Below, piece after piece: positions 1 through 39,047 of a stretch of 43,387 nucleotides of DNA. Position 1 is the first letter of the stretch; every line of letters begins with the position of its first letter. The position numbers were made by a program, and so were the translations under genes. Source of the DNA: Betaproteobacteria bacterium (GTDB lineage: Bacteria; Pseudomonadota; Gammaproteobacteria; Burkholderiales; Casimicrobiaceae). The stretch is taken from the NCBI GenBank assembly GCA_029884335.1, contig JAOUIA010000029.1, positions 1-43,387 on the forward strand. Reading direction: 5' to 3'. Under the pieces are notes generated by a model. The model ran no database searches and was not told where the DNA came from. It worked only from the letters and a program-made list of their open reading frames with translations.

Positions 1-36
1 CTGAACGAGCCCGCCCCCGACGACACCAGTCCATGA
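1..36 (+). CDS. 3' end of an unidentified upstream gene (partial)
   Basis: An open frame from base 1 ends at a TGA at 34-36 and encodes only LNEPAPDDTSP. Its stop overlaps the korA start in an ATGA junction (33-36), which is typical of translationally coupled genes, so it is probably the preceding gene of the kor operon. Eleven residues are too few to name it. In Thauera-type 2-oxoglutarate oxidoreductases a GltD-like electron-transfer subunit is found with korAB, so that is one possibility, purely from context. Confidence 0.5.
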   Translation: MNEPAPDDTSP

Positions 37-1928
37 ACGATACCGCCACGCTCTCCCGCCGCGCCGCCGCGCGCGACGCCATCCTGCTCGACGAGCACAT
101 CGTCGAGGTGATCAGCGACTCGGGCGCGGGCGCGCAGCGCTGCGGCCAGTCGCTCGGCGCCATCGCCGCGCGCACCGGCAACGGCATCTGGACCACCGAG
201 ATCATCCCCGCCGAGATCCAGCCGCCTGCGCGAAGCGTTGCGGGAGCCTCGGGCATCCGCATCCGGATGGGAAGCAGGCGCGTGACCAACGGCGGCGACG
301 AGACCGACCTCGTCGTCGCGTTCAACGAGCAGGTGCTCCTCGGCCGCGTGAAGGCGGGCGAGCTCAAGCCCGGCGCGCAAATCCTGCTCGAGAGCATGTG
401 GCGGGAGCACCGCGACCCGACCGTCGTCAAGTCGTACACCGAGACCGTCGCCAGCCTGCGCGAGTCGGGCTTCCGCGTCTACGAGGTGCCGCTGGAGAAG
501 GAGTGCCGCGCGCTGGTCGCCGACCCGCGCAAGGGCAAGAACATGTTCGTGCTGGGCGTGCTCTGCAGCATCTACAGCTTCGAGCCCAAGCTCGGCCGCG
601 AGCAGGTCGCGCTCACGTTCGGCAAGAAGGAGAGCAAGGTCGTCACGGTGAACCAGGGCCTGTTCGACGCCGGCTACGCGTGGGCGGCGGCGAACCTCGA
701 TTTCCAGTACCGCATCCCCGCCGTGAAGACGACCGTGCCGCAGATCGTCGTCAACGGCAACACCGCGCTGGCGCTGGGCGTGCTCGCCTCGGGGATGGAC
801 ATCTGCGCGATGTACCCGATCACGCCGGCGACCTCGGCTTCGCACTTCCTCTCCGACGTGTTCGAGAAGGTCGGCGGCATCGTTCACCAGGCGGAGGACG
901 AGATCGCCGCCTGCGCGTTCGCCATCGGCGCCTCCTACGCCGGGAAGTGCGCGGTGACGATCACGTCGGGCCCCGGCTACTCGCTCAAGCAGGAGGGCAT
1001 CGGGCTCGCCGTGATGGCCGAAATCCCGCTGGTCGTGGTCAACGTGCAGCGCGGCGGGCCGTCGACCGGCCAGCCCACCAAGGTGGAGCAGGGCGACCTG
1101 CTCACCACGGTGTACGGCAGCCACGGCGACGCCCCGAAGGTGGTGCTGGCCGTGTCCGACATCGAGGACTGCTTCTACGCGATGATCACCGCGCGCCGCA
1201 TCGCAGAGGCGTTCAACGCCGTCGTCGTCGTGCTCTCGGACGCGAGCCTCGCCACCGCGCAGCAGCCGTTCCCGCGCCCGGCGTTCGACCCCGAGTGGCT
1301 GGCCCCGCCGGTCGACCAGACGCCGGTGCCGCGCGGGCAGAAGCCCTACGACTGGGACAAGCTGACCGGCATCGCGCGCCGCTTCGTGCCCGGCCAGCCG
1401 GACGGCATGCACACGGTGACCGGGCTCGCGCACGACCGTGCCAGCAAGGTCGCCTACGACCCCGAGATCAACGAGGAGGGCCTGCGCCACCGCAGCCTCA
1501 AGATCGCCGCGCTGCAGAAGACGCTGAAGACGCCGCAGGTGTTCGGCGATCCCGAAGGCGACCTGCTCGTCGTGGGCTGGGGCAGCACGAAGGGCGTCAT
1601 CGAGGAGGCCGTCGGCCGGCTGCGCGACGAGGGGCTCAGGGTGTCGTCGCTGCACCTCACGTTCCTGCAGCCGATGGCGCCCGGCATCGGCGAGATCCTG
1701 CGCCGCTTCAAGCGGGTGATGTCCATCGAGGGCAACTGGTCCGACGAATTGAAGGACGAGCTGATCGACGCCGACAACCGGCGCTACTCGGCGCTGGCGA
1801 TGATGCTGCGCTCGCGCTACCTCGTCGACGTCGATTGCTGGTCGCAGTCGCGCGGCCAGCCGATCAAGCCGTCGTCGGTCGTGCAGGTGCTGCGCGACAA
1901 GCTCGCGGCGCCTGCGACCGCCGCATGA
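33..1928 (+). CDS. korA: 2-oxoacid:ferredoxin oxidoreductase, fused gamma-alpha subunit (KorA-like)
   Basis: With KorB it should oxidatively decarboxylate a 2-oxoacid, most likely 2-oxoglutarate, to the acyl-CoA while reducing ferredoxin in the cytoplasm. The 631-residue protein has the gamma (CoA-side) domain first, roughly residues 25-200, then the pyrimidine-binding alpha domain starting near 245 with the signature YPITP at 261-265, and a C-terminal domain II near 510-620. This gamma-alpha fusion and length match KorA of Mycobacterium and related aerobes. The ATG at 33 sits in an ATGA overlap with the preceding stop. korB follows after 157 nt that hold a palindromic repeat. Substrate specificity (2-oxoglutarate against pyruvate or branched-chain oxoacids) cannot be settled by reading. 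Confidence 0.88.
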   Translation: MNDTATLSRRAAARDAILLDEHIVEVISDSGAGAQRCGQSLGAIAARTGNGIWTTEIIPAEIQPPARSVAGASGIRIRMGSRRVTNGGDETDLVVAFNEQVLLGRVKAGELKPGAQILLESMWREHRDPTVVKSYTETVASLRESGFRVYEVPLEKECRALVADPRKGKNMFVLGVLCSIYSFEPKLGREQVALTFGKKESKVVTVNQGLFDAGYAWAAANLDFQYRIPAVKTTVPQIVVNGNTALALGVLASGMDICAMYPITPATSASHFLSDVFEKVGGIVHQAEDEIAACAFAIGASYAGKCAVTITSGPGYSLKQEGIGLAVMAEIPLVVVNVQRGGPSTGQPTKVEQGDLLTTVYGSHGDAPKVVLAVSDIEDCFYAMITARRIAEAFNAVVVVLSDASLATAQQPFPRPAFDPEWLAPPVDQTPVPRGQKPYDWDKLTGIARRFVPGQPDGMHTVTGLAHDRASKVAYDPEINEEGLRHRSLKIAALQKTLKTPQVFGDPEGDLLVVGWGSTKGVIEEAVGRLRDEGLRVSSLHLTFLQPMAPGIGEILRRFKRVMSIEGNWSDELKDELIDADNRRYSALAMMLRSRYLVDVDCWSQSRGQPIKPSSVVQVLRDKLAAPATAA

Positions 1929-2085: not shown

Positions 2086-3072
2086 ATGACGATGCCCGTC
2101 ACCCAGTGCCTCATCAAGCTGCACGAGGCGCACCACCAGCTCGAGGACTACCAGGGCGGCGTGCCGCGCTGGTGCAGCGGCTGCGGCGACAACGCGATCC
2201 TGACCGCGGTGCAGCGGCTGTGCCGCGACGAGGACCTGGCGCCCGAGCGCACGGTGTTCGTCTCCGGCATCGGCTGCTCGTCGCGCTTCCCGCACTACAT
2301 GAAGACCTACGGGTTCCACGGCATCCACGGCCGCGCGTTCCCGATCGCGCAGGGCGTCAAGATGGCGCGCCCCGACCTCGCGGTGTTCGTCAACACCGGC
2401 GACGGCGACTGCTGCAGCATCGGCGCGGCGCACTGGATCCACGCCATCCGCTACAACATGAACCTGACGGTGATCCTGCACGACAACCAGGTGTACGGGC
2501 TCACCAAGAAGCAGGCCTCGCCGACGTCGCCGATCGGCATGAAGAGCAACACGACGCCGCGCGGCAGCTACCTCGAGGCGATGAACCCGCTCACCGTCAC
2601 GCTGGGCGTGACCAACGTGTCGTTCGTCGCCCAGGCGGTCGACTGGATCCCCGAGCTGCTCTACGACATCATCCGCAAGGCCTACCTGCACCGCGGATTC
2701 TCGTTCGTCCGCATCATCCAGCGCTGCCCCGAGTGGCTGCCCAAGCAGTTCGAGCCGTGGCTGCACGACCCCGGCAAGACGCTGCTGCTCACGCACCGCG
2801 ACGGCCTCGCGATCTCGCCGGAGCTCGCGCGCACCTACCGCAACCAGATCGAGCACGACCCGCTCGACATGAACCGCGCCCGCGAGATCGCCTCCGCGAC
2901 CGACCCGATCCCCGTCGGCATCCTCTACCGCAACCCGTCGGTGCCCTGCTACGAGGACCTGCACGGCGTAGGCGAGGTGCGCACGGCCGAGCAGGTGCGC
3001 GCGGGGCTGGAAGCCGAGTTCGACAAGGTCACGGTGTGGCCGCAGGACGACGGCGCGCGCGCCGCGGCGTAG
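2086..3072 (+). CDS. korB: 2-oxoacid:ferredoxin oxidoreductase beta subunit (KorB-like)
   Basis: This is the thiamine-diphosphate-binding partner of KorA. Visible signatures are the early WCSGCGDN segment (about residues 29-36), GIGCSSRFPHY, the TPP/Mg motif beginning GDGD at 105-108, and HDNQVYGLTKKQASPTS, which is characteristic of the 2-oxoglutarate/KorB branch. At 328 residues it is a normal length for a KorB. The ATG at 2086 follows GGAGA at 2076-2080; a second in-frame ATG at 2092 is an alternative. The next gene begins 28 nt downstream. KorB subunits of this type carry no 8-Fe ferredoxin domain, so a separate electron acceptor is needed, and the next gene offers one. Confidence 0.9.
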   Translation: MTMPVTQCLIKLHEAHHQLEDYQGGVPRWCSGCGDNAILTAVQRLCRDEDLAPERTVFVSGIGCSSRFPHYMKTYGFHGIHGRAFPIAQGVKMARPDLAVFVNTGDGDCCSIGAAHWIHAIRYNMNLTVILHDNQVYGLTKKQASPTSPIGMKSNTTPRGSYLEAMNPLTVTLGVTNVSFVAQAVDWIPELLYDIIRKAYLHRGFSFVRIIQRCPEWLPKQFEPWLHDPGKTLLLTHRDGLAISPELARTYRNQIEHDPLDMNRAREIASATDPIPVGILYRNPSVPCYEDLHGVGEVRTAEQVRAGLEAEFDKVTVWPQDDGARAAA

Positions 3073-3100: not shown

Positions 3101-5326
3101 ATGGACACGGTCGCGCGATTCGACGAACAGCGGCTCTTCTTCTCGACGGGCCGGCGCCACGGCGAAGGCCTCGACGCGGTCGACGGGCTGGGTTTGCGCC
3201 CGGCGCTGCTCGCGGGCTACCGCGACCTCGCGCGCCTGCGCTACGACTACCCGGTCGTGCTGGTCGGCACCGGGCGCGACGCCGGCGAGGTGCGCGCGCT
3301 CTCTTCGGTGATCGACGACGTGCTGCGCGAAGTGGCGCCGCGCGGGCTCGAGGGCGAGAAGCTGCGCAAGCACGTGCTGCGGCTCGAGCGCGAGATCCGC
3401 GCGCTGACCGCGAGCGGCGCGCGCCGCACGCTCGCCGAGCTTTGGGGGGAGGCGGCGCAGCGGCTCGCTTCGCCGCGCGACCCGTCGGCGCAGGAGGTGC
3501 TGGCCGGCATCGGCGACAAGCTCGACCTCGACGGCTGGGTGGCCGACTGCGACGCGGGCATGCCCGCCGACGTGGTGACGCACCTCTGGCAGGCCGCGCA
3601 GAAGCGCAAGGCGAAGGCGTTCCGCCGCCTGGTCGACCGCCTCGTGGTGCGCCTCTCCGACATCCTGCGCGCCGCGTTCATCCAGTCCGCCGTCGGCCGC
3701 CAGCCGGAGACGCTGCGCGCGACGCTCGGCGGCTCGTACAAGGACGCGTTCGACTTCGGCGCCATGTCGAAGCTGCTGACGCGCAACGTGCCGCACGACG
3801 AGCTGCCGCCGGCACGCCGGCAACGCATCGAGTGGGCGCTGCAGGTGCTGCAAACGCAGCCGTTCTACGTCGACGAGCACCTCGCGGGGCGCCCCGGGGT
3901 TCCCGAGCAGCTCGCGTTCCGGTTCACCGACTGCGCGTCGGCGGCCGAGGCCTGCCGCGCGCGGCTGCCGAAGCTCGCCGAGGTCGTGAAGGCGATCGCG
4001 ATCGCCGAGCTCGAGGCCGACGGCCGCTACGCCGACGCGAAGCACGACCCGTTCTTCGCCCACTTCGACGAGAGCGCGCTGACCCCCGAGGACGTCGTGC
4101 TGTTCCCCGACTACCTCGTGTGCATCCCCGCCGGCGAGAACGACGCGCCGCGCAACGCGGGCCTGATGGACATCCTCTCGGCGGGGCTGCCGGTGAAGGT
4201 CCTCGTGGAGACGACGGACCTCGTCGAGGAGGCGTCCGCGGGCGCGGGCCACTTCCCGTTCGGCGTGCGCGCTGCGCGGCTCGCCAACACGGCGACGGGG
4301 CTGGGCGGCGTGTACGTCGTGCAGACGGCGGCGTCAAACCTCTACGCGATGCGCGAGCGCGTCGCCAAGGCCTTCGCGCACCACGGCGCGGGGCTGTTCA
4401 GCGTCTATGTGGGGACGGGCGCGGAGGGCGCGCTGCCGACGTACCTGGCGGCCGCGGCGGCGATGGAGTCGCGTGCGTTCCCCGCGTTCGCGTACGACCC
4501 GCACGCGGGCGCCACGCAGGCGGCGCGCTTCGCGCTCGAGGACAACCCGCAGCCCGAGGCCGACTGGCCGGTCGAGCCGCTCGAGTACGCCGACGAGGCG
4601 CTGCAGCGCGTGCGGCAGGAGATGCCGTTCACCATCGCCGACTTCATGCTCTGCGACCGCCGTTACGCGTCGCACTTCGCGCGCATCCCGCGCGAGCGCT
4701 GGAACGACGCGATGGTGCCCGCCGACGAGTGGCTCGCGCTGGACGCGAAGCGCGCCGGCGACAAGGTGCCCTACGTGCTGGCGGTCGACGGCGAGGACGT
4801 CCTGCAGCGCGTGATCGCCGACTCGCGGCTCATGCAGACGGTGGTGCGCTACCGGACGTTCTGGCACCGGCTGCAGGAGCAGGGCGGCATCCACAACTCG
4901 CACGCCGAGATCCTGCTCGCGCGCGAGAAGGCGAAGTGGGAGGAGGCGCGGGCGAAGGAGCGCGAGGAGCCCGCGCCGGGTTCAGCGCCGGCCGCCGCGG
5001 CGGCTCCGGCGACCGCCCCCGCCGCCGGCAAGGCGGCCGAGCCGCCGGCCCCGGAGCCCGCCGAGCCGCAGCGCAATCCCGACGAGGCGTGGATCGAGAC
5101 CTCGCGCTGCCCGAGCTGCAACGAGTGCCAGAACATCAACGACAGGATGTTCAAGTACAACGAGAACAAGCAGGCCTACATCGCCGACGTCAACGCCGGG
5201 ACCTACCGGCAGCTCGTCGAGGCGGCCGAGATCTGCCAGGTGGCGATCATCCATCCGGGCAAGCCGCGCAACCCCAACGAGCCGGGGCTCGCGGAACTCG
5301 TGGAGCGCGCCAAGGCCTTCCTGTAG
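3101..5326 (+). CDS. Large kor-linked protein of unknown function with C-terminal one-cluster ferredoxin domain
   Basis: I do not recognise the whole protein (741 residues). The last 75 or so residues look like a single [4Fe-4S] ferredoxin: Cys670-x2-Cys673-x2-Cys676 and a remote Cys712 in EICQVAIIHPG. An Ala/Pro-rich linker (about 625-660) precedes it. The region near 340-580 has the order of elements of the C-terminal TPP domain of pyruvate:ferredoxin oxidoreductases (a strand before LPVKVLV, then VYVVQTA, then FPAFAYDP where PFOR has a YRYNP-like segment), but no GDG...N cofactor motif is seen. The N-terminal 300 residues are helical and charged. It is 28 nt after korB on the same strand, so it probably serves KorAB as electron carrier or assembly factor. 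The PFOR resemblance is inferred by eye. Confidence 0.75.
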   Translation: MDTVARFDEQRLFFSTGRRHGEGLDAVDGLGLRPALLAGYRDLARLRYDYPVVLVGTGRDAGEVRALSSVIDDVLREVAPRGLEGEKLRKHVLRLEREIRALTASGARRTLAELWGEAAQRLASPRDPSAQEVLAGIGDKLDLDGWVADCDAGMPADVVTHLWQAAQKRKAKAFRRLVDRLVVRLSDILRAAFIQSAVGRQPETLRATLGGSYKDAFDFGAMSKLLTRNVPHDELPPARRQRIEWALQVLQTQPFYVDEHLAGRPGVPEQLAFRFTDCASAAEACRARLPKLAEVVKAIAIAELEADGRYADAKHDPFFAHFDESALTPEDVVLFPDYLVCIPAGENDAPRNAGLMDILSAGLPVKVLVETTDLVEEASAGAGHFPFGVRAARLANTATGLGGVYVVQTAASNLYAMRERVAKAFAHHGAGLFSVYVGTGAEGALPTYLAAAAAMESRAFPAFAYDPHAGATQAARFALEDNPQPEADWPVEPLEYADEALQRVRQEMPFTIADFMLCDRRYASHFARIPRERWNDAMVPADEWLALDAKRAGDKVPYVLAVDGEDVLQRVIADSRLMQTVVRYRTFWHRLQEQGGIHNSHAEILLAREKAKWEEARAKEREEPAPGSAPAAAAAPATAPAAGKAAEPPAPEPAEPQRNPDEAWIETSRCPSCNECQNINDRMFKYNENKQAYIADVNAGTYRQLVEAAEICQVAIIHPGKPRNPNEPGLAELVERAKAFL

Positions 5327-37745: not shown

Positions 37746-39047
<1,302 letters not shown>

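Follow-up and report, generated by a model that had tools for sequence, protein, structure and literature searches.

A ferredoxin-tailed remnant of a giant PFOR encoded behind korAB, and its proposed role as an electron carrier

Genes of the korAB-X locus

The window, which is the whole stretch of 43,387 nt that was analysed (contig JAOUIA010000029.1 of assembly GCA_029884335.1), begins at a contig end 32 bases ahead of korA, and korA is followed by korB and by an open reading frame with an ATG start that we named X (Table 1). The cysteines of KorB aligned with the cluster region of the Sulfolobus enzyme and the TPP motif was kept, and korA and korB are the genes of a normal two-subunit 2-oxoacid:acceptor oxidoreductase. 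A sequence-only reading of this DNA had described X as a 741-residue frame 28 nt behind korB that ends, after an Ala/Pro linker, in a single-cluster ferredoxin with Cys670, 673, 676 and 712. All of this was borne out, and the linker proved to be rich in Ala, Pro and Glu; what that reading had overlooked were the nfn genes ahead of korA and the Rnf-linked relatives.

Table 1 Features of the window and of the X protein
Feature	Position	Strand	Description	Evidence
Contig end	1..157	+	matches the end of contig C16 (reverse strand), 157 bases, 1 mismatch; C16 carries nfnS and nfnL	
korA	33..1928	+	fused gamma-alpha subunit, two-subunit 2-oxoacid:acceptor oxidoreductase	TIGR03710 OAFO_sf 491 bits (cut-off 482.75); POR_N, POR; best PDB 6n2n_A
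korB	2086..3072	+	beta subunit, GDGD...N TPP motif	TPP_enzyme_C 3.1e-25; best PDB 5b46_B 6.2e-52
X	3101..5326	+	pseudo-PFOR C-terminal half and ferredoxin tail, 741 aa	
X residues 10-140	3128..3520	+	PFOR domain V (intramolecular ferredoxin domain), remnant without clusters	hhalign 1.5e-9 to giant 754-877
X residues 141-275	3521..3925	+	first part of PFOR beta/TPP domain, remnant	hhalign 1.2e-5 to giant 1012-1128
X residues 276-605	3926..4915	+	TPP domain and following part, without GDG...N	hhalign 2.3e-44 to giant 1173-1513
X residues 606-660	4916..5080	+	Ala/Pro/Glu-rich linker, nearly unconstrained	sequence; dN/dS ~0.93
X residues 661-741	5081..5323	+	single [4Fe-4S] ferredoxin, CxxCxxC...C 670/673/676/712	Fer4_13; hhalign 6.8e-32 to the giants' C-terminal ferredoxin

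The only Pfam family recognised in X was Fer4_13 at residues 666-718 (E 1.1e-5, 26.5 bits, cut-off 24.5), and the scan of X with Pfam and NCBIfam gave nothing else credible and no cofactor motif. The cysteines of the window's X are at residues 150, 278, 285, 341, 518, 670, 673, 676 and 712. When PDB sequences were searched with a profile of nine X orthologues, the ferredoxin (4.4e-4) and two weak matches were returned. A THA8 match in the profile search of PDB sequences (E 0.0056) was discounted because of its weakness, and a cytochrome bc1 subunit match of the middle region (E 0.038 and weaker) was dropped, being missing from the profile search and far weaker than the match to PFOR.

Scanning of genome contigs gave 164 relatives of X, and the best 80 of these 164 make up the named loci; by title, they were nearly all metagenome assemblies, from Betaproteobacteria and some Alpha- and Gammaproteobacteria, with four from Acidobacteria or Thermoleophilia. 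Whether the gene always follows korAB, a question raised by the sequence-only reading, was surveyed on these loci, and among the best 80 of 164 korB lay directly before X at all 76 loci with room (the other 4 were too near a contig end), while korA preceded korB-X at 67 of 67 (13 without room). These 76 loci were counted at the DNA level; another count gave 74 loci, 5 without room and one miss (L121, which has a broken frame). Further, unnamed loci showed the same adjacency, with korB before X in 9/9 of those holding the front of X. An X away from a 2-oxoacid oxidoreductase, which the earlier reading had named as a case that would speak against it, was sought among the best 80 of 164 and not found. 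The loci were picked by likeness to X, so they show where X lies and not what other kor operons contain. Within the family, X and this type of korB were held by the same 7 of 64 genomes, and among 300 genomes of the order, a sample that overlaps the family sample, the same 4 held both. In contrast, a survey of 398 genomes of the phylum gave five whose KorB is about 50% identical and in which no X was found; the 3 of these 5 that were searched for X gave no match.

The gene order was nfnS-nfnL-korA-korB-X. In the best 80 of 164, nfnL stood before korA at 55 of the 56 loci with room and nfnS was present at all 50 with room, those 50 carrying both nfn genes; L100 had korA-korB-X without nfnL in the stretch examined. 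The best PDB matches were 4ylf_B for nfnL (E 9.4e-166) and 5jca_S for nfnS (8.7e-90). The two genes matched both solved NfnAB subunits, and the Cys ligand motifs were kept, the ligands being the cysteines that we take to serve as such in NfnAB. The nfnL gene of the window's genome was found at G000:C16:157-1656(-) and was 90% identical to nfnL of L085, and the matching contig ends suggest that the window operon most likely continues onto contig C16. Upstream of nfnS on this contig (L184) there are also a gene for a GltD-like flavoprotein and another korB, which is divergent (30% identical).

Homology of X to giant PFORs and loss of their sites

Related genomes and plasmids yielded giant PFORs (pyruvate:ferredoxin oxidoreductases; about 1,630-1,680 aa) that match X in their C-terminal part, and eight of them with an X-like tail (L031, L032, L033, L080-L084) were aligned. 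The three giants scanned with Pfam all had POR_N, PFOR_II, POR, ferredoxin stretches and TPP_enzyme_C (just under the cut-off in L035). For the C-terminal Fer4_13, the score passed the cut-off in L080 and fell short of it in L031; L035 gave no Fer4_13 match there and has a ferredoxin-like end of another kind. rnfC followed the giant in 8/8 and rnfB lay directly before it in 7/8 (in L031, rnfB came after rnfA), and such complete giants with a C-terminal ferredoxin beside rnf make a link between PFOR and Rnf at the level of genes. No rnf gene was found in the stretches examined around giants of the other group (L034, L035, L040 and L057). A PFOR between rnfB2 and rnfC2 of the Solemya velum symbiont has been read as pyruvate feeding Rnf (PMC4287430). 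On a Gemmatirosa plasmid (L032), korA-korB lies before rnfB-giant PFOR-rnfC-D-G-E-A, without X. This arrangement is possibly the parent state and is given here as a lead; the Gemmatirosa KorB was placed close to the X-type KorBs, in a tree that warns of long branches. In the window itself, positions 38674-38952 on the reverse strand gave a weak match to the RnfC family (E 2e-8, below the cut-off), which perhaps belongs to a NuoF-like gene.

With nine X orthologues against the eight giants, residues 10-741 of X aligned with giant residues 753-1647 over 720 columns (hhalign 2.2e-77). The parts of X were then compared in local mode by using 72 X rows against the eight giants with an X-like tail, which gave 1.2e-52 for residues 1-605 (without the ferredoxin) and 2.8e-10 for residues 1-275. 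Residues 1-605 also matched PFOR-like delta-beta proteins of 550 aa (1.3e-21 over 202 columns), and the controls run with the same residues gave no match (reversed rows 0.3, korA family 0.52, korB 0.11, nfnL 0.27). All parts of X matched the PFOR giants and the controls were negative, so the whole of X, the first third included, is a PFOR C-terminal half; these profile alignments show X to be homologous to domain V, the TPP domain and the C-terminal ferredoxin of PFOR. The sequence-only reading had held that the middle of X follows the order of elements of a PFOR TPP domain, and LPVKVLV, VYVVQTA and FPAFAYDP did correspond, in order, to MPVKVMV, SYVLQGS and YPLFRYDP of the giant. Its link to PFOR, which it offered as an inference to be checked by profile-profile search, was decided by the above matches of residues 1-605 and 1-275; it was right, and wider than proposed, the first third being a decayed domain V that it had overlooked.

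The sites were then read from an alignment of 76 X (the window's and 75 from the best 80 of 164 relatives) and 8 giants; the X of L106, L107, L121, L150 and L158, being incomplete, were left out. Among the matches listed, seven of the eight domain-V Cys columns were gaps in 76/76 X and the eighth had Cys in 1/76; in the Cys columns of the proximal cluster, Cys was found in 1/76 at 1019, 0/76 at 1140, 0/76 at 1344 and 76/76 at 1022 (C150 of the window), and the four ferredoxin cysteines were present in 76/76. The window's X has lost three of the four proximal-cluster cysteines and kept C150. Column 1140 had Cys in 1/9 X in a smaller alignment, so that column depends on the alignment. The sequence-only reading was also right that the GDG...N cofactor site is missing: the window has CIPAGENDA where the giant has MGGDGAMYD. 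Among the matches listed, GDG stood exactly at the giants' place in 2/76 X (L140 and L144), where it is a relic, and the place of the N held mostly Glu or other letters. The alpha/pyrimidine domain (POR_N) and the gamma domain are absent from X and are present in the separate korA.

Selective constraint was estimated on one pair only, the window and its 80%-identical relative L085, and dN/dS was about 0.31 for X, 0.18 for korA and 0.12 for korB, which means weaker constraint on X than on korA and korB in this pair. Within X, the same single pair gave 0.26-0.29 for the decayed parts, 0.18 for the ferredoxin and 0.93 for the linker. By dN/dS, X looks like a selected gene. Four further places drew attention by their cysteines, residues 150, 278, 341 and 584 (window 3548-3550, 3932-3934, 4121-4123 and 4850-4852): among the matches listed, all four were Cys in 55/76 X and three in the other 21. 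C150 was the only invariant one in X; in the window's X, residues 150, 278 and 341 are Cys and residue 584 is Tyr. There was one ferredoxin per chain in the 75 named X from the best 80 of 164 relatives, and L192:7152-10070 encodes an X with three ferredoxin units in tandem at the C-terminus.

X' clusters beside rnf genes

Among 274 genomes of the class, a profile search turned up the window's X, one more X (G926) and five divergent full-length relatives, which we named X'. In trees with midpoint roots, X was one group (100/100) on a long branch, and X together with X' was also one group (100/100). The order korA-korB-X'-rnfB-giant was found in 5/5 X' loci (L193-L197). X' lacked the same sites as X and kept the ferredoxin in 4/5, and at the places of residues 150, 278, 341 and 584 it had Tyr (5/5), Cys (4/5), Leu (5/5) and Arg (5/5). 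In L194 the ferredoxin of X' lies in another frame after a break; korA of this one-contig genome is split too, over three open reading frames, so a sequencing error is likely behind the frame break of X'.

The giant beside X' had no C-terminal ferredoxin (5/5). Its four proximal cysteines, GDG, DTQVYSN and the alpha-domain YPITP and EPESEHAA were lost (5/5), all eight domain-V cysteines were kept (5/5), and POR_N was still recognisable in the giant of L196, the one that was scanned. Judged by these residues, the giant beside X' is a second pseudoenzyme.

A NuoF-like protein, a FrdA/NadB-like flavoprotein and a small Fe-S protein were encoded upstream of korA in 4/5 X' loci (named in L195, in the others by likeness), and sucC and sucD came after the X' cluster in 4/5. 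The X' clusters with sucCD place neighbouring TCA steps beside Rnf. 2-Oxoglutarate dehydrogenase E1 gave no match in G820 and G932, which are 2 of the 5 X' genomes and are small (1.9 and 1.6 Mb, estimated 98-99% complete); E1 was present in the genome of the window and in 8/10 other genomes tested. For the distant X' clusters only, sucCD and the genomes without E1 point to 2-oxoglutarate as the probable substrate of Kor.

Proposed electron route and comparison with known systems

We propose, with a probability of about 0.68, that X is a pseudoenzyme derived from a ferredoxin-tailed giant PFOR and that it carries the electrons of KorAB to Nfn here and, in the X' clusters, to Rnf. KorAB would most likely convert 2-oxoglutarate and CoA to succinyl-CoA and CO2, possibly in either direction. 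X, which we infer to be a physical third subunit of KorAB, would bind KorAB through its PFOR-derived part, in the manner of the genuine domains inside PFOR; no similarity between X and its own KorB could be recognised (0.11), so this PFOR-style docking is a guess. The tethered ferredoxin would take electrons from the KorB cluster and, with the Ala/Pro linker as its swinging arm, bring them to the next carrier. This carrier would be the NfnAB-type flavoprotein pair in the window operon and Rnf in the X' clusters, and the ferredoxin tail of the active giants would presumably hand over to Rnf likewise. Nfn as the partner is guessed from gene order, and the triple ferredoxin of L192 would fit a carrier role. 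NfnAB is given the reversible reaction of reduced ferredoxin, NADH and 2 NADP+ to 2 NADPH (PMC4518329), and OFORs of the KorAB type are described as having no domain V, with a large pocket close to their single cluster into which an external ferredoxin was modelled (PMC5020499).

Another reading keeps X at work with KorAB but lets its tethered ferredoxin feed free ferredoxins or another reductase, nfn being adjacent because it also uses reduced ferredoxin. X' adjoins Rnf and not Nfn, so the acceptor would be exchangeable, and L100 keeps korAB-X with no nfnL in the stretch examined; however, with nfnL ahead of korA in 55/56 and nfnS in 50/50 loci with room (best 80 of 164), we consider this reading unlikely. 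Still less probable is that X mainly serves KorAB as a structural, assembly or oxygen-protection factor, with the ferredoxin tail as a sensor or spare cluster off the main path. Such a role would suit the dead scaffold, which is the largest part of X and still constrained, but within X constraint is strongest on the ferredoxin (dN/dS 0.18, one pair), which has its four Cys in 76/76 among the matches listed and is tripled in L192. It is very improbable that a new site, e.g., at the conserved cysteines 150, 278, 341 and 584, makes X an enzyme or redox protein: the 55/76 X with all four and the other 21 with three (among the matches listed) would agree with this, but C150 alone is invariant, the window has Tyr at 584, X' has mostly other residues, and neither Pfam nor NCBIfam gave a cofactor motif.

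The proposed role of X as a carrier from KorAB to Nfn could be part of something wider. We regard as evenly balanced the idea that dead PFOR parts are a general plug-in module for the electron wiring of KorAB, in which X' and the rnfB-linked giant lead to Rnf and, in the lineage of the window, one of them was re-plugged to the bifurcating NfnAB. If this is true, two decayed PFOR paralogues of one lineage, X' (with the C-terminal ferredoxin only) and the giant (with the two domain-V clusters only), would together link the oxidation of 2-oxoglutarate, or the reverse reaction, to the ion-pumping Rnf, and the gene annotated as "PFOR" that lies between rnfB and rnfC of such genomes would encode no pyruvate enzyme. 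Some PFOR-like genes inside rnf clusters appear to be dead enzymes, so pyruvate metabolism may be misread from genes that are incapable of catalysis.

In the accessible literature, searched by titles and the beginnings of abstracts, no description of X, X' or a dead PFOR was found. X is an unrecognised PFOR-derived third protein for a classic central-carbon enzyme, found in the best 80 of 164 loci mostly in uncultured Betaproteobacteria by title. It would offer a route, open to testing, by which the oxidation of 2-oxoacids yields NADPH (by Nfn) or an ion gradient (by Rnf), and a case of enzyme decay yielding an electron adaptor.

Among known systems, X resembles the giant, rnf-linked PFOR of the one-chain NifJ type, whose C-terminal half including the ferredoxin aligns with X 10-741; X differs in lacking the alpha and gamma domains, the clusters of domain V, the proximal cluster and the TPP motif, and in lying outside an rnf operon. 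The korA and korB of the window are of the same type as the Sulfolobus OFOR and the KorAB of Thauera and Mycobacterium, but for these no PFOR-derived third protein is described in the accessible parts of the sources. The nfn genes upstream of korA and on contig C16 are close relatives of NfnAB and retain its Cys motifs. NfnAB as known so far takes free ferredoxin, whereas here the nfn genes stand in one operon with korAB and X. The KorABC of Azoarcus evansii is a 2-oxoglutarate:NADP+ oxidoreductase, made up of a Kor enzyme and a flavoprotein that uses NADP, and we know of no pseudo-PFOR ferredoxin subunit in it. The operon of the window would encode an OFOR system in which a pseudo-PFOR protein acts as adaptor for the electrons. 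A parallel is NuoG of complex I, in which a dead oxidoreductase domain of an unrelated fold (a molybdoenzyme) is kept as a scaffold beside working iron-sulfur clusters.
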